A program made the position numbers and the translations under genes. Below, in pieces: positions 7,329 to 20,162 of a stretch of DNA of 20,283 nucleotides. How positions within the stretch are numbered: position 1 is the first letter of the stretch; each line of letters opens with the position of its first letter. This stretch comes from a virus. The stretch spans positions 1-20,283 of the IMG/VR virus record IMGVR_UViG_3300044675_000724; one strand, given 5' to 3'. Under the pieces are notes generated by a model. The model saw only the letters and a program-made list of their open reading frames with translations, searched no databases and was not told where the DNA came from.

Positions 7329-8086
7329 TAGCGACCACCTCGCATTTGTTCTGCCTGTTGCATGAAGTCAAAGAAACTTAGTTCCCTTTGCTGTTGATAT
7401 TTTTCTGGTTCTAGTTCTTTAGCAACACGCTCTACAACAGCACCCGCACGCTCATCACTATACCCAGCGGTTTGGACAATTGTATCTTTACCAGACTTAT
7501 CTCTTTTGGTAGTTGTGGTTGTTCCTTCTTTAATTAACTTGTTAATCTCGTCCATAATCTTTTTACGAGACTCTTCTTTAATATTAGTGCTGCCAATAGT
7601 CTCCAAAAGAAACTTGTCGACATTCTGCTTTAGTAGGGCTGGTGACTTTTCAGTAATATACTGTGTTACACCGCTAGACTTTATTTTATCTTCTTCTGTA
7701 GTGCTGTAACCAGTTGCTTCGTCTTTAAATAACTGGATTAACTTCTTTACACTACCCTCAGCATTCTCAACAAGTACGTCAAAGTTGGTTTGTAAGAAAT
7801 CTTTAGCATTTGGATATGTAGAAAGATTAGTTTTAGTTGCACCAAACTTTTTAAGATAAGGAATAATCTGTTGCATTTCCGCTTTAGTTAGGTTAGTGAC
7901 AAAGTTAATCTTATCAACTTCTTTATCTTTAACAACCTCAACGCCAACGTTATCTAATCCTGTGTCAATTGCTGAACCTAGACCACCAGGTAGCGTACTG
8001 TTTGAACCAGGACGAAGTACTGTGCCTGTACCCAAAGGAGGGGTAGACGTAACCTTAGGTTTACGACCGATAACTGGCTCTACCAT
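7328..8086 (-). CDS. Virion-block protein of unknown function (252 aa)
   Basis: I do not recognise a family. The first 45 residues are Pro/Gly/Thr-rich and probably disordered; the rest is helical and Lys/Glu-rich (AEMQQIIPYLKKFGA; ESRKKIMDEINKLIKEG), with a Thr tract (GTTTTTKRDKSGKD) that may be a loop, and a C-terminus PEKYQQQRELSFFDFMQQAE. Both ends overlap neighbours by TAATG. Immediate downstream position to the giant 1661-aa protein suggests that the two interact or are both ejected, but this is only context. Confidence 0.6.
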   Translation of the reverse strand: MVEPVIGRKPKVTSTPPLGTGTVLRPGSNSTLPGGLGSAIDTGLDNVGVEVVKDKEVDKINFVTNLTKAEMQQIIPYLKKFGATKTNLSTYPNAKDFLQTNFDVLVENAEGSVKKLIQLFKDEATGYSTTEEDKIKSSGVTQYITEKSPALLKQNVDKFLLETIGSTNIKEESRKKIMDEINKLIKEGTTTTTKRDKSGKDTIVQTAGYSDERAGAVVERVAKELEPEKYQQQRELSFFDFMQQAEQMRGGR

Positions 8087-11000
8087 TACTTGCTCCTCTT
8101 TGGTGGTTCATAATCGAATATAAAACTAAAGTCATCTCCGTCAAAGTATCTGTCATAAAATTGACCAAACTTTATATCCTTATTGCGCAATTCCCATACT
8201 TTAATTGAGACTTTATTTTGTATGTCAATTGCTGCTTTAGTTCCGTAGTTAAGTTTTCTGCGCTTTAATTCATCATTAATTTCATAGCGGAAGTTCATGT
8301 ATTCAATAATAGCAGCCATTCGCGGTTGCTTAGATAGGTCTTTCCACATCTCGGGTGTGTTGGCAGCAATAGTAATAGCCTTAATAACATCAGCCGTTTG
8401 ACCAGTGTCTCCGCCACCCTTGCTTTTTTCTTTGATATCGTACCACATAGGATTTTGGGTCTTTTGTTGTTCGATAAAAGAATCCTTGTATTGTTGCAAG
8501 ACTTCTGCACCATAGCCACGTGCTGGGTCTAAGTTGTAAGGTGGCTTCTTCATTTCTGTTGAAACTACTTGAATTAACTTAAACCAACTATTCCAGCCTT
8601 GGTTGACAATCACTGACTTCATATTTTCAAGTGATGCTTCGTTTTCTTTGTATTTTCTGTCCAACCCAGGAATCTTCTGTGTACGAAGATAAGCATCTGC
8701 TGAACTAGAAAATGCATAGTTGTCATCATTAAAGACAGCACCTAATGCGGTAAGGTTATCAATGTTAGTAACAATTTCTCTTGTTGCAAAGTTATTACGC
8801 TTTAGCAAAGAAACTGACGTATCATCTGAGCGAAGTCCAGATACGGAGTTGGTCAGTTTTGCTGCAAACATAAAGTAGTCAGGGTTGTTCTTGAAGAAAT
8901 TTTCGGCCCCATTATCTGGGTCAGCCTTGATTGCCTCATTAAATCTATCTTCATAATAAGATATTGCAGTACGCATCTTAGGCTGTTGTGGCATTGAAAA
9001 TGCTGACAAAAGACGTACAACCGATAGGCTATACGCATCTTCTTCTGCTCTTATGCTGATTGCATTTAGTTCAGATGGGTTGGGCTGACGGTCTTTTTCT
9101 ACATAAAAATCATAAAGATATTGTTTTGTAATCATATCTTTATCTTTATTTAATTGCTCGCCGCCACGTTCTTTTCCAATTAATGGAATGTTAGTCGCAG
9201 CCCATAAGTCTCCAACTTTTCTCCATGTGTTTGGAGTATAAGCAGATGCATTATTTGTTGATACACCAAACGGTAGCAAGAACTGACCTAGTTTGGTTTC
9301 TGCAAATTCAGTATTTTTAGCAGTCATATTAGCGATTGTGGTTGCAAGTGGACCTGCAGATAAAAGCGAACCAGAAGTTGGATTAATTGGATTAAACCAA
9401 CTAACTCCAAAACGTGCCTTTAATCCTGTGCGTGGCATTGTGTACTCAATGTACTTGTTGCCATAAGCATCTTCCTGGACATTACCAATGTATTCTGGAA
9501 TCTGCGCAGCGTAAGCAAGACGGATAGGAAACTCTGGGTTATCTACCATGATGCGCCCGTATGCTTTAAACTGTTCTACAACCGCAGGGAAGAAGGCTAT
9601 AACATAGTTCATTATACCAGAAAAGTTCATATCCTTTGAAAAGGCGTTAATCTTGCTACGGTATTCATTAATAGCATATGAACGGGCAATTTTTTCATAG
9701 CGCAGTTTATTTTCAGCGTTAGGAATAATACCACGTTCATTGGCAACTAATACTAAACTTTCCAACTTTTCGTAATACTTAGAAGCAAAATAATGGTTGT
9801 AGTTAAGTCTAGAAGTTGGTACTGTAGCCATCCAAGTTACAACATTCTTTTGCAAATTATTTAATCCTTGTATAATACCACTTGTGCCTAGAGCAGCAGT
9901 TGTAACATCCCCAGCAACTGGTGGTCGTTCTGCAACATTTGGATATAATCTAACAAGTTCTGTAGGAGTTATCTTACCACTAAGAACTAGTTTTCTTATT
10001 TCTTCATTAGAAGCAAGACTTTCTACAGCGTAGTTAACGCGCTCATAAATATATTCAGCATCATCCTTGCGCAGTGGACGCGCAGGCTTTCCTTCTTCGA
10101 CAATAGTTAATCCAAAGCGGCTGATATATGGACGCTGCGCATCTTGTTGTAGCCAGTTCATTAACTCTGGCTTGCTCATCTTGCCTTCCATAATTTTCTT
10201 AGAAAGCGGGTCAATTCCAATGTGATTATTAAGCATATCAGTCCAAGCCGACAAGTGTGCTGATTCGTTACCGACTGGCTGTATTACTCTTAAGCCATAA
10301 CTATTGCGTCGCACTGAATCCATTTGGAGTTCGCGAAGAGATGCTACTGCACCACGGATACTTTCTTTGCCTTCTAAAACCTGACGGCTGATAGCAGCCA
10401 ATCCTTCGTCAGAAACAGCAAGTGGAAATTCCCATCCAGGCTGAACAACTCTACCCTTTCCAACTACCTTAGTTGGCACGTTAGCAAGAATCGCACTTTC
10501 TTGACGGCGTAATTCTTTATTTGTTGCTGCAATTTCGTCTCGATATTTAACCAGACGCTCGACAGAAGGTGGAAATTCAATTGGAGGGGCGCCTTTTTTG
10601 GGCTTCTTGTAGTAGCCTTCGGCTTCCAGGTTTCCTTCTAATACATTTAAAATTTTAGTATTTTCGTCAACAGTGTTGCGAATTTTCTTCAAAGTACGCT
10701 TAGGATTATTCGTGTCTCTTTCCAAGGCAGAAATTTTCTTTACGCTGTTGAGCCCATTTGTTATAGCCTCTAGAGTACTTTGACTCATTTGAGAGTACAA
10801 AGAAAACATAGATGCGTCTGTCCAAGCACGGAAATTAGCATCACGAAGGATGTTTATGGGGAACCCACCACGTGCCAAAGTTCCGCTACGCCATACTGCT
10901 TGTAGTTCATCCAATGCTGTTTTTGCACCGTACGCAGTAAGTTTTGCTCCCTTAATAGCGGGAGACTCATCCTTGCGAAATTCTTTGAAAGCATTAACGA

Positions 11001-13071
11001 TGGTTGGAACATCTGGTAGATACGCGCCATTTGCAAGTTGGGTAATCAACTGTGGGTCTTCAATACCTGTTCCATCTTTGCCAACCATGTAAGCACGGTT
11101 TTCAGTCTTTGCTAAACCTGCTTCTGCTTTAGTTTCGCGGGTATTCTTTAAGTATGTTTGAACTGCTAGGTCTGCAACAGATTCGTGGTGACCAGAGGCA
11201 ATAGCAGCATTTCTAATTACTGCTTCTGCGTATTTTTCAACTAAATCATACTTGATGCCTTCGTTTGAGGCAACAGTAAAATCGTTGTATATTCTTAACG
11301 CTTCTTTTTCGTCAAGAACTCCATAACGAACAGAGTCACGAAGACTTGTGCGAATGCGTGTAGCAGCCTGAATACCTTCATCAAATTTAATTGTAGCATG
11401 TGGAGCAGAATCTAAAGCGCGAGATACAATCTGCATTGGTGTTCCAAAGGCACTGTTTTTGTACAAAGATGTTATTAACTTGCCTGTTCCAGTTTCCTGA
11501 CGAATGCCATGAATAAGTTCAGAGTTAGACATATCTTTTTCGCGCCACTTTGTTGGATTAAATCCCAACTTTTCTCCAGATAGACTAACTGCAGTTGCGC
11601 GAACGGCTCTATCAGCACGCTGACGCTCAACCCATGCAAATGGGGATACGGTTCTATCTGTCTTAAGCCAGTCTTGAAGGTCTATTGTTTTTCTAAGAAA
11701 ATCATCTTTTGCAGAAAGTGCAGCATATTCTGCTTTAATCATATTGGCTTCATCGCCATCTGCATACTTTTTACCAAGCATCATCATCTTGTTATCGTGG
11801 CGAAACCACATCATTCCATCTTGCTCAAGAGCGGCAATACCAGATTCATAACGATTTAATTCCATTGCAGTATCTGCATAGTCTGGATTATCTAAAAGTT
11901 CATCAATAGCATCTGGGTCTCCCATACCAATACGAAGAACAAGAGACTTTTCTAAGTCTGATTTCTTGCTAAGTAAAGCAGCAGCAGTAGGACCCATATC
12001 ATTATTTTTTAAAAGTGGGTGATTACTTATTGTTGCAGCGTCATTATCTAAAAATGCAAATAGTGTAGAGTACTTTGATGGTTCGCTGCGTCCTGCTTTT
12101 TTAAGTTCTTCAAAGTTAACGTCTTCTCTATCGGCTAACTCCATACCTTTTATGCCAGTTGCGCGACCAATAAAGTCAGCAGTAAGACCCTGGCTTTTAG
12201 GAACTAACCCACCCTTAAGTGCGCCAGTTGCAATTCTACCAGTAAGGGCTGCACCTGCTAGTACAGGGTCAGTAAGAACTTCTCCACCAAGGTTAAAAAA
12301 ACCTTTGCTGATAATACCAATGCCCATGCTTGTATCTCCAAGAGATTTAAACCCTTTGATACGTGCTAGTTGCACTGTAGTATCTTGACCAAAATTATAA
12401 TGTTCTTGACCTACACCTGATTCGGCATAGATTGCTGCTTGCTTTGAATTTTCGCCAACAGTTCCTGATTTTGCAATATTACGGCTAACCGCACCTGTGT
12501 AACCCATACCAATACGAAAACCTGCAAGTGCTCCTGCAACGGCTCCTACTGTTGATGTAATTGGAGCGGCTGGTCCACCAATAAGTCCTGTTGCTGCGCC
12601 AACGCCAGCACCAGTAATTGCTCCTGCAAGTCCACCTGCAATTAGGTTTAATCCAGCAAGCATTCCCTTTGCTGTTTCGTCATCACCAAGTGCGCGAACA
12701 AAAGAATAATTAGCACGTACGTTTCTTTGGCCAGCAGTTGCTAATTTTAATGGGGTTTCCATTGTTTTTGAAACTTTTTTCTGTACTGACTCTGGAATAA
12801 CTTTATCAATACCTGCACCAATAAATCCAGAAACGGCAGACATGCCTTTAATTGCGAGAATGCGAGCATCCTCGACATCTTGATTTGTAATTCCACGTTT
12901 CATCGCTAATTGACTTTGTGTATTAAGTTTACTAATTCTAGATAGCAGTGATTTTGAAGTATCTAAAGTTACGCCAAAAGGAACGCGACCGTTAGTTGCT
13001 GGGACGGCACTTGTCTTAACATCGTTTCCGATATCTTTTTGAAGATTACCAATGTATTCCCATAGATTCAT
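8086..13071 (-). CDS. Giant virion protein with glycine-zipper segment (1661 aa), ejection-type
   Basis: At 1661 residues this gene takes up a quarter of the window. Residues about 136-192 form two hydrophobic Gly/Ala-rich stretches (LNLIAGGLAGAITGAGVGAA and VGAVAGALAGFRIGMGYTG), a glycine-zipper pattern typical of proteins that insert into or cross membranes. The remainder is mostly helical and charged, with segments such as LARGGFPINILRDANFRAWT in the middle and MNYVIAFFPAVVEQFKAYGR followed by FGVSWFNPINPTSGSLLSAG in the C-terminal third. Very long internal virion proteins of podoviruses (for example T7 gp16 or the N4 virion RNA polymerase) are ejected with the DNA; this one has no transglycosylase or polymerase motif that I can point to. 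The start overlaps the preceding stop as ATGA. Ejection or DNA-translocation role is inference from size, zipper and place next to the portal. Confidence 0.7.
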   Translation of the reverse strand: MNLWEYIGNLQKDIGNDVKTSAVPATNGRVPFGVTLDTSKSLLSRISKLNTQSQLAMKRGITNQDVEDARILAIKGMSAVSGFIGAGIDKVIPESVQKKVSKTMETPLKLATAGQRNVRANYSFVRALGDDETAKGMLAGLNLIAGGLAGAITGAGVGAATGLIGGPAAPITSTVGAVAGALAGFRIGMGYTGAVSRNIAKSGTVGENSKQAAIYAESGVGQEHYNFGQDTTVQLARIKGFKSLGDTSMGIGIISKGFFNLGGEVLTDPVLAGAALTGRIATGALKGGLVPKSQGLTADFIGRATGIKGMELADREDVNFEELKKAGRSEPSKYSTLFAFLDNDAATISNHPLLKNNDMGPTAAALLSKKSDLEKSLVLRIGMGDPDAIDELLDNPDYADTAMELNRYESGIAALEQDGMMWFRHDNKMMMLGKKYADGDEANMIKAEYAALSAKDDFLRKTIDLQDWLKTDRTVSPFAWVERQRADRAVRATAVSLSGEKLGFNPTKWREKDMSNSELIHGIRQETGTGKLITSLYKNSAFGTPMQIVSRALDSAPHATIKFDEGIQAATRIRTSLRDSVRYGVLDEKEALRIYNDFTVASNEGIKYDLVEKYAEAVIRNAAIASGHHESVADLAVQTYLKNTRETKAEAGLAKTENRAYMVGKDGTGIEDPQLITQLANGAYLPDVPTIVNAFKEFRKDESPAIKGAKLTAYGAKTALDELQAVWRSGTLARGGFPINILRDANFRAWTDASMFSLYSQMSQSTLEAITNGLNSVKKISALERDTNNPKRTLKKIRNTVDENTKILNVLEGNLEAEGYYKKPKKGAPPIEFPPSVERLVKYRDEIAATNKELRRQESAILANVPTKVVGKGRVVQPGWEFPLAVSDEGLAAISRQVLEGKESIRGAVASLRELQMDSVRRNSYGLRVIQPVGNESAHLSAWTDMLNNHIGIDPLSKKIMEGKMSKPELMNWLQQDAQRPYISRFGLTIVEEGKPARPLRKDDAEYIYERVNYAVESLASNEEIRKLVLSGKITPTELVRLYPNVAERPPVAGDVTTAALGTSGIIQGLNNLQKNVVTWMATVPTSRLNYNHYFASKYYEKLESLVLVANERGIIPNAENKLRYEKIARSYAINEYRSKINAFSKDMNFSGIMNYVIAFFPAVVEQFKAYGRIMVDNPEFPIRLAYAAQIPEYIGNVQEDAYGNKYIEYTMPRTGLKARFGVSWFNPINPTSGSLLSAGPLATTIANMTAKNTEFAETKLGQFLLPFGVSTNNASAYTPNTWRKVGDLWAATNIPLIGKERGGEQLNKDKDMITKQYLYDFYVEKDRQPNPSELNAISIRAEEDAYSLSVVRLLSAFSMPQQPKMRTAISYYEDRFNEAIKADPDNGAENFFKNNPDYFMFAAKLTNSVSGLRSDDTSVSLLKRNNFATREIVTNIDNLTALGAVFNDDNYAFSSSADAYLRTQKIPGLDRKYKENEASLENMKSVIVNQGWNSWFKLIQVVSTEMKKPPYNLDPARGYGAEVLQQYKDSFIEQQKTQNPMWYDIKEKSKGGGDTGQTADVIKAITIAANTPEMWKDLSKQPRMAAIIEYMNFRYEINDELKRRKLNYGTKAAIDIQNKVSIKVWELRNKDIKFGQFYDRYFDGDDFSFIFDYEPPKRSK

Positions 13072-13553
13072 ATAATGGTCCTAAGGTAATTTACATAATC
13101 CTTAGTACCCTGTGAAGTATCTATTTGCTCTGCCCATAGTTCAATAACTGGGAAATATTCACGTACTAAATCTAAATCAGGGTCATTGATAACTTCTTCT
13201 TGCCCTGGCATCATAAGTGATTCTGGTCCTGGAGTAGTACCAATTGCTGCACCTGTTGTAATATTTTCATCTGGGAAAGCAGATGGTGCTGTTAGTGGCA
13301 TAGGAATCTGGCCTTCGCCTGCTCCAGCGCCTGCCCCTGAGCCTTTAAATGCTGCTGCAGTTGTTGGGCCTGCCAACTTCGCACCTTTTTGCTGGTCCAT
13401 TGTAGCCTTGCCTTGACCGTACCCCATACCAGGAATGTACGTAGGAGCCTGTGTTCCGTTTCCGCTTTGACCGTTACCACCGAATGGATTGATATTGGCA
13501 GGATTATTCTGTGGTGCGTTTGGACGCATACCTCCACGATTTTCTACAGCCAT
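13068..13553 (-). CDS. Gly/Pro-rich linker-type protein (161 aa)
   Basis: About the first 110 residues are low-complexity (Gly, Asn, Pro, Gln, Ala), with no likely fold, and the last 45 form an acidic helical domain (DLDLVREYFPVIELWAEQID). It starts on a TAATG overlap with the protease-like gene, whose last codons contain an AAGGAG ribosome site, and ends on an ATGA overlap with the giant protein gene. The form (long disordered arm plus short folded end) would fit a linker or chaperone for the giant protein, or a substrate of the adjacent hydrolase. No family recognised. Confidence 0.65.
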   Translation of the reverse strand: MAVENRGGMRPNAPQNNPANINPFGGNGQSGNGTQAPTYIPGMGYGQGKATMDQQKGAKLAGPTTAAAFKGSGAGAGAGEGQIPMPLTAPSAFPDENITTGAAIGTTPGPESLMMPGQEEVINDPDLDLVREYFPVIELWAEQIDTSQGTKDYVNYLRTII

Positions 13554-14131
13554 TATTTCTCCTTATTACCATGTTGTGTAAAAATATGAATTGGTTGTGA
13601 GCACATGTTGTCGTATTGAATTGCAATAGAAATTGCTTTACGAATCATTCGCTCTGCTTCTTTAATAGTATTTACTTTTTCCACACCCAACGCTGCCAAT
13701 GCACCGAGGGCAACATCTCCGCCACTACCCATAACATATACGTTACGAACATCGGTATCCCAAGAGTAATCCTCAGAAACCGAAAAAATTTGCCCTTTAA
13801 CGGAGATGATGAATCCTCCATCGATTTGCGCGACATCGCCGTCCTCTTTCATGTCTATACCAGCATCAACAAAATTCTTACGCATTGCTGGGATAAATTT
13901 CTGCGTCATATAAGTATTTAAATCTTCTTTAATGGTTGGCTTAGGTTGCACGTATCCATAATGTAAAACATTACTTGCACGTGATGAACCACAGCCACCA
14001 ATTAAGATGCTATTGTTATCAACAATCTTAGGAGTCTTAGCAATCTGAAAGCGACCATGTTCATCGCTAAGGCGAGAATCGCAGCCCATTACAGACCAGC
14101 CATCACCTTGTATCGCTACTAAAGTTGTCAT
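13553..14131 (-). CDS. Proteasome/HslV-like Ntn hydrolase, putative head maturation protease
   Basis: The 192-aa protein has the layout of a proteasome beta or HslV subunit. It begins MTTLVAIQGDG, so removal of Met by the host aminopeptidase would expose Thr2 as the N-terminal nucleophile with no propeptide needed, as in HslV. Asp18 followed by SR (CDSR) fits the conserved D17-S-R of proteasomes; Lys35 in KTPKI fits K33 with one residue inserted; GGCGSS (45-50) fits the substrate-binding Gly turn; MGSGGD (134-139) fits the conserved GSG; Asp174 with Cys177/Ser178 fits the D166/S169 site. Length is near that of HslV. It lies between portal and scaffold/capsid genes, where a prohead protease is normally found, and no other protease gene is seen. 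A CPU-like role in protein turnover is an alternative, but no ATPase partner is near. Fold assignment is strong; role is inferred. Confidence 0.85.
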   Translation of the reverse strand: MTTLVAIQGDGWSVMGCDSRLSDEHGRFQIAKTPKIVDNNSILIGGCGSSRASNVLHYGYVQPKPTIKEDLNTYMTQKFIPAMRKNFVDAGIDMKEDGDVAQIDGGFIISVKGQIFSVSEDYSWDTDVRNVYVMGSGGDVALGALAALGVEKVNTIKEAERMIRKAISIAIQYDNMCSQPIHIFTQHGNKEK

Positions 14132-16578: not shown

Positions 16579-18447
16579 CTAACTATAAGTTTCTTGCCAT
16601 TGCTCAGCGAATGCTTCGTCTAAGTTTAATGACATACGTTGTTGTTTTTGACTTCGGGTTGCCCAGCGGTTAGTTTGATATTGACCCACCGCAGAGGATT
16701 GTTGCATTAATTCACGTACACGTATAATAGCAAACCATAAAGCCATCACACAGTCAGTTGGGTTTTTAGTATCTGGCTTCCAGGTAATGAGTTGCTGCAC
16801 CAAAGACTTGAGTCCTTCTGAGCCTTCATTACTTGGTAGTTCTATGATACCGTTGTTCTGGTAGCGTTCATTGCTAATGCTGCCAAAAAGGCTAGCCATA
16901 GATGCTACACCGAAAGACGTGTCCCACTTGTTCTTGCCTGTAAAGTGTGAGTTCAATTGACAACCATAGGTTGCTAGATAGTTACGTAAATCCGTATCCA
17001 TAGCATAATACTTCTGGTGTGCGTTAATCTCCACACGAAACTCTTGAGGATGGTACTTCTCAACCCACTCACGAATAAGAGCATTCTCTTTTTGAGGTGT
17101 CGGGTCCGCCATGTTTACGCAGTCCAGTACATATATCTGACCATCGTCGCGGTTGTACGTTACTGCTACGAAAGCAGAGCGACCAGATACTGCAGGGTCA
17201 AAACCAATTACTGTGTAGATTGAGCCTGCTCTTTGCGGGTGTCCTGGAGTACCAGGTTTAAGCGGTCCACGCTTTCGCATACCGTTAACACATCCTGCAA
17301 CTGCTGTTGGCGGAAAGATAGAGTCTTGTTGGACATCTTCTTGTTGGTAGACCATAGCCCATACTGACGGAGCGACCTCAGAGCGACGCTTAAAGAGCGA
17401 GGGTCCATCCCACTTAGGGTAAAGCCCATCTTCGAATTGCTCATCTAAATCGTTCTCCTGGATGTTGGTCTTAGGCCACAACGTTTTCCAGTTCTGCGGG
17501 TTCTCATCAAATTGCAGAACGGCAGGCATAGCACAGTAGGTAAAGGGAGTCTTGCCACCAGTCCATTGTGCGCCATCACGTATCATTTTATACAAATCTA
17601 CGGGAGCGACACGGGTTCCTACTATAAGTAATTTTCCGTGCCGTCCCAGACGTGTGATAACTTCCTTTTGAAGCCATTCAATTTGCTTCTCCCATTCATG
17701 GGCATTTGAGTTCATCACAACGTCGTCTAGGATAATCAGGTCGGCGCGTGCGCCGTAAATCTGGGAACCAAATCCAAGTGCTTGCACTGTGGGGTCTTTC
17801 TCGCCAGAATCTCGTCCCGTTCCTAAATATATCATGTCGGCAGACCATTGGGTTGCATCTGCCTTATAGCCTCCATTTGGGCCAAAGGCCGTCTGGAGTT
17901 TCATATATGCTGGGTGGCTAAGACGAGTCTTAATCGCACCTAAGAATTTACGTGCCATACCCTGGGTCTTGGACACGATGATAACTCGCGCATTGGGGTT
18001 GGTCACAATTGTGTACAACGCATAGTTGGTTGTAATGGTGGTTGACTTGGCGTGCTCGGGTGGCACGTTAATCAGGACACGCTTTGGGTCTCCTGGCTCG
18101 TAAGTCATACCTGCAGGTTGCCATCGTGGCTCACGACCTTCAATAAGGTCTAGCCAGTTAAGTTGATGGTCAAAGAGGGTAGTGTCCAGAAACTGCTGGG
18201 AGAAGTCGGGGTAGGATATATCTTTGAGTTCTGCCAGGTCTGCTTTGATGCCTTTGCCTGCAAGGCGGGCTTTTTCAGACTTTTCCTTAAAGGATTCGTC
18301 CACCATGACCCATTGACGAAAGGCTGTATCTTGTCTACCGACGGCGGCCATAGCGGCCGTAATGGTAGCACCCTGTTCTAGTAGGGCTAGTACTTTAGCC
18401 TGGGCTTCGTCTTTAGGTACTGATTGTACCCCTGGTTTACGTCCCAT
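16579..18447 (-). CDS. terL: Large terminase with N-terminal helix-turn-helix segment
   Basis: The 622-aa protein carries both terminase activities. The ATPase has a Walker A at 127-136 (NVPPEHAKST, Lys134), a Walker B at 237-242 (LIILDD) and a coupling-type segment LLIVGTR at 273-279. The RNase H-like nuclease has Asp417 in GFDPAVSG, Glu473 in RVEINAH and Asp565 in PTDCVMALW, the three acidic residues expected for metal binding. Residues about 12-62 (LLEQGATITAAMAAVGRQDT, AFRQWVMVDESF) look like a helix-turn-helix of the kind normally found in small terminase subunits or Tc1-type DNA-binding proteins. No separate small-terminase gene is seen nearby. In the family this motor cuts and pumps DNA through the portal. 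It begins with ATG after a TTAGGAGACAATA ribosome site and is the first large gene of the leftward block. Confidence 0.95.
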   Translation of the reverse strand: MGRKPGVQSVPKDEAQAKVLALLEQGATITAAMAAVGRQDTAFRQWVMVDESFKEKSEKARLAGKGIKADLAELKDISYPDFSQQFLDTTLFDHQLNWLDLIEGREPRWQPAGMTYEPGDPKRVLINVPPEHAKSTTITTNYALYTIVTNPNARVIIVSKTQGMARKFLGAIKTRLSHPAYMKLQTAFGPNGGYKADATQWSADMIYLGTGRDSGEKDPTVQALGFGSQIYGARADLIILDDVVMNSNAHEWEKQIEWLQKEVITRLGRHGKLLIVGTRVAPVDLYKMIRDGAQWTGGKTPFTYCAMPAVLQFDENPQNWKTLWPKTNIQENDLDEQFEDGLYPKWDGPSLFKRRSEVAPSVWAMVYQQEDVQQDSIFPPTAVAGCVNGMRKRGPLKPGTPGHPQRAGSIYTVIGFDPAVSGRSAFVAVTYNRDDGQIYVLDCVNMADPTPQKENALIREWVEKYHPQEFRVEINAHQKYYAMDTDLRNYLATYGCQLNSHFTGKNKWDTSFGVASMASLFGSISNERYQNNGIIELPSNEGSEGLKSLVQQLITWKPDTKNPTDCVMALWFAIIRVRELMQQSSAVGQYQTNRWATRSQKQQRMSLNLDEAFAEQWQETYS

Positions 18448-18503
18448 TATTGTCTCCTAAAAACGCCTATTTAACGGTAGGGCTAAACGGGCATAACTGT
18501 CCC

Positions 18504-18536
18504 ATTATAATTATAATTTTATATATATTATATATA
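18504..18536. other. 33-bp pure A/T tract upstream of the terminase gene
   Basis: Thirty-three consecutive A/T bases lie 57 bp before the terminase start, with TATAAT-like hexamers in both directions. This could be a DNA unwinding element for the nearby DnaA-box cluster, or the -10 part of a leftward late promoter; I could not pick a matching -35. Confidence 0.6.
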
Positions 18537-18543
18537 GGAGGAG

Positions 18544-18631
18544 CGGAGTCTTAAACGGAGCGACTCCGTAATATGTATTTATATACATAATAGATAACCT
18601 GTTCAAACAGGTAAATCCGAACAAAGTTCGG
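18544..18631. repeat. Four consecutive short hairpins
   Basis: Four perfect inverted repeats follow each other in 88 bp: CGGAGTC/GACTCCG (18544-18568, 11-nt loop), TATGTAT/ATACATA (18572-18589, TTAT loop), ACCTGTT/AACAGGT (18597-18612, CA loop) and CCGAAC/GTTCGG (18617-18631, AAA loop). They lie between the A/T tract and a possible small gene, in the leader of the leftward transcript. They could form a structured 5' leader RNA, protein-binding sites, or hairpins of a replication origin. Confidence 0.7.
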
Positions 18632-18690
18632 GAATATATTTTTCGCAGTAGTACTTTTGAGCGTATATAGCCCCCAAATATAACAGAAAA

Positions 18691-18873: not shown

Positions 18874-18893
18874 TAGACTATCTGCCCTGCCCC

Positions 18894-18955
18894 TGTGGAT
18901 AACCCCCAATAGTTATGCACAAGTTATCCCCACCTGTGGATAAACCTGTGGATAA
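18894..18955. other. Cluster of five DnaA-box-like 9-mers, putative replication origin
   Basis: Three exact copies of TGTGGATAA (reverse complement of the classic DnaA box TTATCCACA) lie at 18894-18902, 18935-18943 and 18947-18955. In the opposite orientation are TTATGCACA at 18913-18921, which matches the relaxed consensus TTATNCACA, and TTATCCCCA at 18924-18932, with one mismatch. Five boxes in 62 bp, together with the nearby A/T tract and the strand switch of gene direction, are the make-up of a DnaA-dependent origin. A DnaA titration site or DnaA-regulated promoter is the alternative. Confidence 0.75.
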
Positions 18956-18961
18956 CTTTCG

Positions 18962-18973
18962 ACACAAACTTTT
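18962..18973 (+). repeat. ACACAAACTTTT repeat, copy 1
   Basis: The 12-mer ACACAAACTTTT followed by CG lies between the DnaA boxes and the LexA box. Further copies are at 19932-19943 and 19998-20009, and a shortened one (ACACAAACC) at 19922. All are upstream of rightward promoters. It may be an activator or initiator-binding site. Confidence 0.6.
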
Positions 18974-18988
18974 CGAACAGGTGTTCGA
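18973..18988. promoter_or_regulatory. LexA (SOS) box
   Basis: TCGAACAGGTGTTCGA matches the LexA operator of Bacillus and actinobacteria (CGAACRNRYGTTCG) at every defined position and extends one base further on each side as a perfect palindrome. It lies 28 bp before the -35 of the rightward promoter and 18 bp past the DnaA-box cluster. Host LexA could therefore hold a phage promoter in check until DNA damage. Whether it acts on the rightward promoter or on an unseen leftward one is not clear. Confidence 0.8.
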
Positions 18989-19015: not shown

Positions 19016-19044
19016 TTGACCTTATTGCCCCGTTATGGTAGAAT
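19016..19044 (+). promoter_or_regulatory. Rightward sigma70-like promoter for the 211-aa gene
   Basis: TTGACC at 19016-19021 and TAGAAT at 19039-19044 are separated by exactly 17 bp. Transcription would begin near 19051 and give a leader of about 140 nt before the ATG at 19191. It is bracketed by the tandem 9-mers and has a LexA box upstream and a palindrome downstream, so it is likely to be tightly controlled. Confidence 0.75.
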
Positions 19045-19080
19045 ATGTCCTATAAGTCCGATATGTCGCGAATGTCGCTA
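19045..19080 (+). repeat. Four tandem 9-bp repeats just after the -10
   Basis: ATGTCCTAT, AAGTCCGAT, ATGTCGCGA and ATGTCGCTA follow without a gap, sharing the core AWGTCS with a strict 9-bp period. They begin at the first base after the -10 and cover the predicted start site. Such iterons fit a repressor or a replication-initiator binding site. Confidence 0.65.
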
Positions 19081-19090
19081 TATAATATAG
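19078..19090. promoter_or_regulatory. Palindrome CTATATAATATAG, copy 1 (possible operator)
   Basis: A 13-bp inverted repeat with one central base lies 33 bp after the -10 of the first rightward promoter. The same element, with central A or T, occurs twice around the second promoter (20039-20051 and 20136-20148). It also contains TATAAT, so a -10 role cannot be excluded, but no -35 lies at the right distance. Confidence 0.6.
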
Positions 19091-19190
19091 TGAGCGAATT
19101 AGGGGAATGGATTAGACATATTCCGAGATTAGGCACTACAATAAAGACATGGACAAAGGCTCCATGCAGTACCCAAACAAAGGAAAAAAA

Positions 19191-19826
19191 ATGTCAGCAA
19201 ACACAGTAAAAAACGCTAGCCCGCTAGCAGAATTGAACGATTCACTTCAAGCGGAATACATGGACGTAATCGCAAAGGGAGAGGATGCGAATATCGCGAA
19301 CCTCGAGTTCATCAAGTCACTAGATGACCAGATGCAAAGAGGCCTAACTCAAGCGGTCGCAACTGCAACACTCAAGGCAACAGCCAAGGGAATCAAAGTC
19401 GGAATAATCGTAAAGCATGGACATATTCCCTCAATCCCTACAGCCCGCCTAATCGTGGACAAGTACTTCAACGAGATGCCAGAGACAACAGCCTCAGCCG
19501 TTCTCACTCTTGCCTCTCGAGTTCTTGCGGATGTAAAGGCAAGCGGAGTCCGCAAGCACATTGCAAAGTTCGACACATTGAAAGAGTTAGCAGATGGCAC
19601 ACGCACAAAGGCCGAGTCACAAGCAGAGGCAAAGGCCGAGTCACAAGATGAGGCCATGCAAGAATCAGCCAAGGCCATCACCTTGGAGAATATCGTGGAT
19701 GCTGTTGATTCTTACCTCTCAGCCAATGACCTCAAGACTCTCACCACATGCGAGTTAGAGAAGTTGCACAAGGTAATCGCAAAGTTGATTACAGTAGAGA
19801 ACAACACCAAGGCGCTCACAAAGTAA
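19191..19826 (+). CDS. Rightward early-type protein of unknown function (211 aa)
   Basis: This is the first gene of the rightward block. I use the ATG at 19191 because AAAGGA lies six bases before it; an ATG at 19149 in the same frame lacks a ribosome site and lies in a hairpin (CATGGA/TCCATG, 19148-19166). The product is helical and charged. The segment TAKGIKVGIIVKHGHIPSIP is followed by a long helical part and then an imperfect 8-residue duplication (KAESQAEA / KAESQDEA), encoded by two adjacent 24-bp repeats at 19608-19655. The C-terminus is another helix (CELEKLHKVIAKLITVEN). Codons appear more GC-rich than in the leftward genes. I do not recognise a family; a regulator or DNA-binding early protein is possible from its place beside the origin-like region. 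Confidence 0.8.
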   Translation: MSANTVKNASPLAELNDSLQAEYMDVIAKGEDANIANLEFIKSLDDQMQRGLTQAVATATLKATAKGIKVGIIVKHGHIPSIPTARLIVDKYFNEMPETTASAVLTLASRVLADVKASGVRKHIAKFDTLKELADGTRTKAESQAEAKAESQDEAMQESAKAITLENIVDAVDSYLSANDLKTLTTCELEKLHKVIAKLITVENNTKALTK

Positions 19827-19867: not shown

Positions 19868-20027
19868 TTTAGTCATGCCCGAAAGTAATCGCGACACGCC
19901 CGACCGCGTGGGGAGCGGCCGACACAAACCAACACAAACTTTTTATTCGCGGTCAGACGGCCTTTGATTTACAGGCGGAGGCATAAGCAATTTTTCAACA
20001 CAAACTTTTCGCGCCTCTGATATGCGT
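19868..20027. other. Non-coding stretch with repeats and GC-rich inverted arms
   Basis: Between the terminator and the operator/promoter of the next gene I see no convincing gene. The stretch holds two ACACAAACTTTT repeats (19932-19943, 19998-20009) and a pair of 7-bp inverted arms, GACCGCG at 19902-19908 and CGCGGTC at 19948-19954, which enclose the first of these. A small RNA or a regulatory site is possible; nothing decides between them. Confidence 0.5.
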
Positions 20028-20051
20028 AACGTGGCTTGCTATATAATATAG
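20028..20051 (+). promoter_or_regulatory. 24-bp operator-like element upstream of the second promoter
   Basis: The element consists of AACGTGGCTT followed by GCTATATAATATAG, and ends 17 bp before the -35. It recurs at 20125-20148 after the promoter, in the same direction, with only small changes. A shared repressor or activator could bind both and loop the DNA. Confidence 0.62.
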
Positions 20052-20068
20052 CGACCCAACCAACGTGC

Positions 20069-20124: not shown

Positions 20125-20148
20125 AACGTGCTTCGCTATATTATATAG
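20125..20148 (+). promoter_or_regulatory. 24-bp operator-like element in the leader of the last gene
   Basis: AACGTGCTTC followed by GCTATATTATATAG, the second copy of the element at 20028-20051. Part of it also forms a small hairpin (GAAGC/GCTTC, 20120-20134). It ends one base before the GGAAGG ribosome site of the next gene, so binding of a protein here could also affect translation. Confidence 0.62.
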
Positions 20149-20162
20149 TGGAAGGTAATAAA

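Follow-up and report, generated by a model that had tools for sequence, protein, structure and literature searches.

Host-type DnaA boxes in the control region between the early and structural genes of a relative of Planktophila phages, and their possible use as an input of host state

In P1 oriR and other plasmid-type origins, host DnaA boxes lie in a mobile replicon that encodes its own initiator, with iterons beside the boxes. In the pR/pO-ori-lambda region of phage lambda, host DnaA acts at boxes near promoters and stimulates the transcription that activates replication (PMC3985674 and references therein). DnaA also acts as a transcription factor (PMC8203912), and at uvrB of E. coli it regulates jointly with LexA, both proteins repressing the gene (PMC6015884); given these precedents, a transcription-mediated effect of DnaA on phage replication is possible. 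For the basal unwinding system (BUS, box-spacer-DnaA-trio) of bacterial oriC, the rule is that DnaA-trios lie within 0–16 nt of a box and that three motifs are needed (PMC8287927). Here we analysed a stretch of 20,283 bases (the window), the virus record IMGVR_UViG_3300044675_000724, which is a fragment of a phage genome and carries a cluster of DnaA boxes. The locus resembles lambda in that host DnaA boxes lie near a phage promoter, here a putative one, and replication functions are divided between phage and host; however, lambda encodes an initiator, O, that goes with iterons, and its sites only resemble DnaA boxes, whereas the window has a host-consensus cluster and no recognised initiator. 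P1 oriR and this phage likewise have in common that a mobile replicon carries boxes for host DnaA, but no initiator or iterons were recognised beside those of the latter. As at uvrB, DnaA boxes adjoin LexA operators at one promoter region, here a putative one, the difference being that uvrB is a bacterial repair gene and the site here a phage region. The clustered TTATCCACA boxes, with 11–12 bp spacing and in both orientations, are like those of the oriC BUS, from which the phage differs in having neither DnaA-trios nor an adjacent melting region. A host LexA operator in a phage control region is also found in GIL01 (PMC4551915), which is temperate, whereas the cultured relatives of the window phage lyse their host (PMC10202952).

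The terL of the window is 76% identical to those of Planktophila phages LanE43AprF5 and E7 (OX376641/OX376640), and its gene order matches that of the LanE43 family (Caudoviricetes), with structural genes common to the window and F5. As the window phage falls in the family of LanE43AprF5 and E7, whose reported host is Planktophila (PMC10202952), its own host is very probably Ca. Nanopelagicales. The phage is probably lytic on streamlined freshwater actinobacteria; no integrase was noticed, and no prophage copies of the family were found in bacterial genomes. For comparison, 80 relatives were gathered, the near-complete ones being 36–42 kb long. One of these (G001; terL 95% identical) encodes a DnaB-like helicase, a Toprim primase, a Cas4/PD-(D/E)XK exonuclease and a RusA-like resolvase, as well as WhiB and a sigma factor. 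In the search for replication initiator genes that the original prediction had proposed, neither an initiator nor a DNA polymerase was recognised among the G001 genes examined, and a DnaA domain was absent from all 14 phage records examined. Elsewhere in the window, a gene for a proteasome/HslV-like peptidase (13553–14131, minus strand; Pfam PF00227, PHROG 1040) adjoins the portal gene and perhaps specifies a head-maturation protease, and a 1661-aa protein of the structural operon (8086–13071, minus strand) had no convincing family match. The features of the region around the boxes are as follows.

16579–18447, minus strand: terL, terminase large subunit, leading the leftward structural operon (by homology)
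18504–18536, unstranded: 33-bp A/T tract within the leader of terL; all 17 aligned relatives are A/T-rich there too, with boxes or not
18876–18882, minus strand: GATAGTC core adjoining the last box; in most relatives, with or without boxes
18894–18902, minus strand: DnaA box TTATCCACA, exact match
18913–18921, plus strand: DnaA box TTATGCACA, exact match to the full TTWTNCACA consensus
18924–18932, plus strand: near box TTATCCCCA, one mismatch
18935–18943, minus strand: DnaA box TTATCCACA, exact match, 12 bp from the next box
18947–18955, minus strand: DnaA box TTATCCACA, exact match
18973–18988, unstranded: perfect LexA-type operator TCGAACAGGTGTTCGA, its 14-mer identical to that at host recA/lexA
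19016–19044, plus strand: sigma-70-like early promoter, TTGACC-17-TAGAAT, its −10 preceded by TG (consensus match only)
19191–19826, plus strand: first rightward early gene, predicted all-helical protein; second ATG, preceded by a ribosome-binding-like AAAGGA

The boxes within 18894–18955 start at intervals of 19, 11, 11 and 12 bp. Five sites in both orientations had been predicted and were found, at a point where, as also predicted, gene direction switches, being leftward from 18447 for terL and the structural genes and rightward from 19149/19191 for an ORF. The proposed division into three perfect and two near boxes did not hold, four sites being full TTWTNCACA matches and one a near match. 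The whole window contained 8 strict boxes, compared to 2.6 ± 1.5 in shuffles (shuffle maximum 7). When the window was simulated 500 times with a second-order model, four strict boxes within 62 bp never occurred (maximum 2), and none of 20,000 simulations of the intergenic region gave four there (maximum 3), confirming that the cluster is far above chance. When known phages were searched with the array by blastn, 486 records matched weakly, none covering 80% of the query, and no described array is therefore identical to it.

Host-like genomes, which are streamlined actinobacteria of 1.2–1.5 Mb, were found by searching for dnaA and for a 23S actinobacterial signature, and by class sampling. They are probably Nanopelagicales, an assignment drawn from their 1.2–1.5 Mb length, their G+C and an order-level sample that comprised only genomes of 1.2–2.2 Mb. 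The G+C of their dnaA loci was mostly 40–48%, and four loci at 53–55% may belong to a different group. In 30 of 30 host-like genomes TTATCCACA adjoins dnaA, in many of them as pairs 10–12 bp apart. Since the phage boxes are letter-for-letter identical to the host oriC box and include TTATCCACA pairs at host-like spacing, they are the box of the host. That host DnaA would bind them is well supported by the exact host-type box, the host pair spacing and the lack of a phage-encoded DnaA. Copying of the array from a host oriC was considered and is not supported, as the spacing is similar and the flanks are different.

The same identity bears on the possibility that these repeats are bound not by DnaA but by a phage protein, or by another host protein, that prefers TTATCCACA. 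The presence of different repeats in the same slot in other relatives would suit such a binder, as would the product of the first rightward early gene, which is fast-evolving and helical and shows only a weak structural similarity, which we do not trust, to DNA-binding domains of the ParB type (Z 3–4). However, it would have to prefer precisely the host oriC box, in pairs at host-like spacing, and the early protein family is the same in relatives with different repeats. We consider this possibility very improbable. The early gene product had no Pfam or PHROGs match. It was also considered as an initiator: its AlphaFold model was good (pLDDT 84), yet neither PDB nor BFVD yielded a fold relative that was convincing.

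To compare the surroundings of the boxes, sites were counted from −900 to 0 of terL in 55 relatives (49.5 kb) and in 697 kb elsewhere. The LexA site CGAACANNTGTTCG occurred 16 times in the terL-upstream regions and 0 times elsewhere, and the LexA 14-mer was present upstream of terL in 15 of the 55 relatives and absent from the rest of their loci. In host-like genomes this 14-mer precedes recA and lexA (genes recognised by eye from translations), which identifies CGAACANNTGTTCG as the host LexA operator. TGTGAN6TCACA, a putative CRP-type site by consensus alone, was found 39 times upstream of terL and 4 times in the 697 kb elsewhere. In addition, 11-bp CTCAG direct repeats lie upstream of terL in 24 of the 55 relatives. 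In two host-like genomes (L394 and L395), CTCAGGAAACNCTCAGG is located directly upstream of a gene for an OmpR/PhoB-family response regulator; judging from these few copies, the CTCAGG 11-bp repeat is probably the site of that regulator. At that gene CTCAGGAAACNCTCAGG is a candidate autoregulatory site, which phages may have copied.

The 55 relatives, which include the window and have at least 900 bp upstream of terL, are non-independent samples; among them, 11 have a box cluster upstream of terL. The carriers include phages whose terL differs by about 15% and in which the boxes are rearranged, indicating that the boxes are selectively kept or regained. Presence of boxes switches at least 4–6 times across the tree of terL, with L001, which has one exact box and two one-mismatch boxes, scored as lacking the cluster. 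The expectation that close relatives would conserve the boxes had a mixed outcome: these 11 keep them, and two others, L004 and L026, whose terL is 99% identical, do not. In both, the terL-proximal 300 bp are 98% identical and the box segment is absent, swapped for 11-bp CTCAG repeats between the common flanks TTTGTGTTG and GATAGT. Other relatives, L006 among them, hold both boxes and CTCAG repeats, and no boxes are present in the corresponding region of F5, a cultured phage. Since the slot is filled in relatives by putative sites of other host regulators, the DnaA boxes would constitute one interchangeable module. In most relatives, whichever repeat array is present, the GATAGTC core is found 350–510 bp ahead of terL. 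Among further elements seen here, ATCCTATA and TCCTATAGGA repeats lie upstream of terL in L045, L046 and L037, all of which lack boxes, and the boxes of several relatives are directly adjoined by a GC-rich element, CGCGACACGCCCGACCGCG, which in the window lies at about 19890–19908.

Our preferred reading, to which we give a probability of about 0.5, is that the boxes are an input to a hub of host regulators, through which host DnaA adjusts early transcription and perhaps, indirectly, replication. Host DnaA would occupy the boxes about 60–125 bp upstream of the early promoter, with the operator for host LexA beside them, the control region lying between the early rightward gene or genes and the terminase/structural operon. 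Bound DnaA would adjust early transcription, upward or downward, and the change in transcription might in turn affect phage replication, as in lambda. In relatives, the same slot would be taken by sites for an OmpR/PhoB-type response regulator, for a CRP-type regulator and for LexA. The LexA 14-mer and the DnaA box are identical to sites at host genes, and the operators are concentrated in the intergenic region. The boxes lie 60–125 bp upstream of the early promoter match, with the LexA operator in between. That match recurs in L022 (TTGACC-17-TATGAT) and can be read by eye in L001; it is clear only in these two and the window, and weak or missing in the other relatives with boxes. Promoter-like matches in the region numbered 6 against 4.0 expected from shuffles, which is little above chance. 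Also counting against the regulatory reading, a site 60–125 bp upstream of the promoter is an unusual position for a repressor, and the 11–12-bp spacing of several boxes would also suit a replication complex.

That spacing, with the conserved GATAGTC core directly adjoining the array, would equally fit a phage origin opened by host DnaA, in which melting nearby lets in the DnaB-like helicase of the phage and its primase, with the rest left to the host polymerase. The gene content of G001, with helicase, primase, exonuclease and resolvase and no polymerase or initiator recognised among the genes examined, and the 14 records without a DnaA domain are consistent with such an origin, and so is the position of the boxes at the divergence point, where the minimum of cumulative GC skew falls in most genomes. 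However, in 16 genomes, some of the rotated ones incomplete, this minimum lay near the terL region in most, whether boxes were present or not; the maximum was near gene convergence, at about 30–37 kb, with no turn at the antipode. The skew minimum anticipated near the site was there in most genomes, but those without boxes share it, and because skew tracks the gene strand its position is confounded with the direction of the genes. Of the 11 near-full-length genomes that lack boxes, F5 included, 10 or 11 had the helicase, primase and exonuclease families, which also argues against an origin at the boxes. The replication genes are common to both groups, and no extra initiator gene specific to the box-less genomes was recognised.

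The layout of the site argues against it as well. The strict DnaA-trio test (CTA/TTA ×3) was positive in 0 of 12 phages with boxes compared to 13 of 29 host loci; under the published degenerate rule (PMC8287927) the window reached at most two of the three NAN motifs needed, and some relatives reached three, as random sequence often does. No easily melted stretch was found beside the boxes, whose flanks are near average in stability. The 50 bp of lowest stability, at 18493–18543, are more than 350 bp away (the weakest DNA being about 350–400 bp off), and they are retained in relatives without boxes. The 33-bp A/T tract that had been placed near the boxes does exist, but it is 358 bp from them, in the terL leader, and since it occurs independently of boxes in relatives it is not part of the cluster. 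The description of the site as a host-type origin layout, with no DnaA-trio module, no adjacent melting region and an A/T tract unrelated to the boxes, could therefore not be maintained. These tests remove only the specific argument from layout; with the loss of the box segment from two relatives with 99% identical terL also speaking against it, we regard an origin at the boxes as rather unlikely, though worth serious consideration.

The terL leader has further features. At 18540–18640 there is a run of palindromes (CCGAAC/GTTCGG, ACCTGT/ACAGGT, ACGGAG/CTCCGT and others) whose conservation is strong in the majority of 17 relatives and partial in F5. As the consensus fold is weak and there is little covariation, DNA sites and a leader RNA are indistinguishable as explanations of this run. 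Between 18440 and 20283, terminator-like sites numbered 11, against 1.7 expected.

In E. coli, DnaA is titrated by boxes at high copy number (PMC8203912 and references therein), and on this precedent the array could be a decoy, the accumulating phage copies soaking up host DnaA and halting new rounds of chromosome replication. Eight host-like chromosomes carried 5–17 exact TTATCCACA each, numbers that 10 phage copies with 3–5 sites apiece would exceed. Against this, the array is small compared to dedicated titration sites, it is lost in close relatives, and it does not stand alone, since LexA and CRP-type sites share its promoter region; moreover, a lytic phage may hardly need to block initiation. 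We consider a decoy improbable. Returning to control by host regulators, we tentatively suggest, as a possibility rather than an expectation, that the TTTGTGTTG-GATAGTC segment is a "socket" for exchanged arrays (DnaA, OmpR/PhoB-type, LexA and CRP-type) that ties early transcription or the start of replication to the state of the host. If so, the signals read would be chromosome replication, envelope or nutrient stress, DNA damage and carbon status. Two other repeats lie near control regions in the window: the palindrome CTATATAATATAG, perhaps a phage operator, has three copies (19076–19096, 20038–20052 and 20134–20150) near rightward promoters or genes, and a ACACAAACTTTTCG-like repeat is found at about 18961–18976, 19920–19949 and 19997–20012.

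Ca. Nanopelagicales, slow-growing hosts that rank among the most abundant groups of bacteria in lakes, are believed to suffer heavy predation by their phages. A control region with sites for DnaA, LexA and other global regulators, in which arrays are swapped between near-identical phages, offers a handle on how lytic phages may read host replication and stress. The exact double-box 22-mer TTATCCACAGGTTTATCCACAG was present in at least 120 IMG/VR viral stretches (L220–L338), which suggests that the use of host DnaA boxes by phages goes beyond the few textbook cases. Of the TTATCCACAGGTTTATCCACAG loci that were read, 26 had at least four boxes within 200 bp, and some had 10–18. In a recurrent group of these stretches, GATCTTACTG and GTGGAGTGAAGTGGAG adjoin the TTATCCACAGGTTTATCCACAG sequence.
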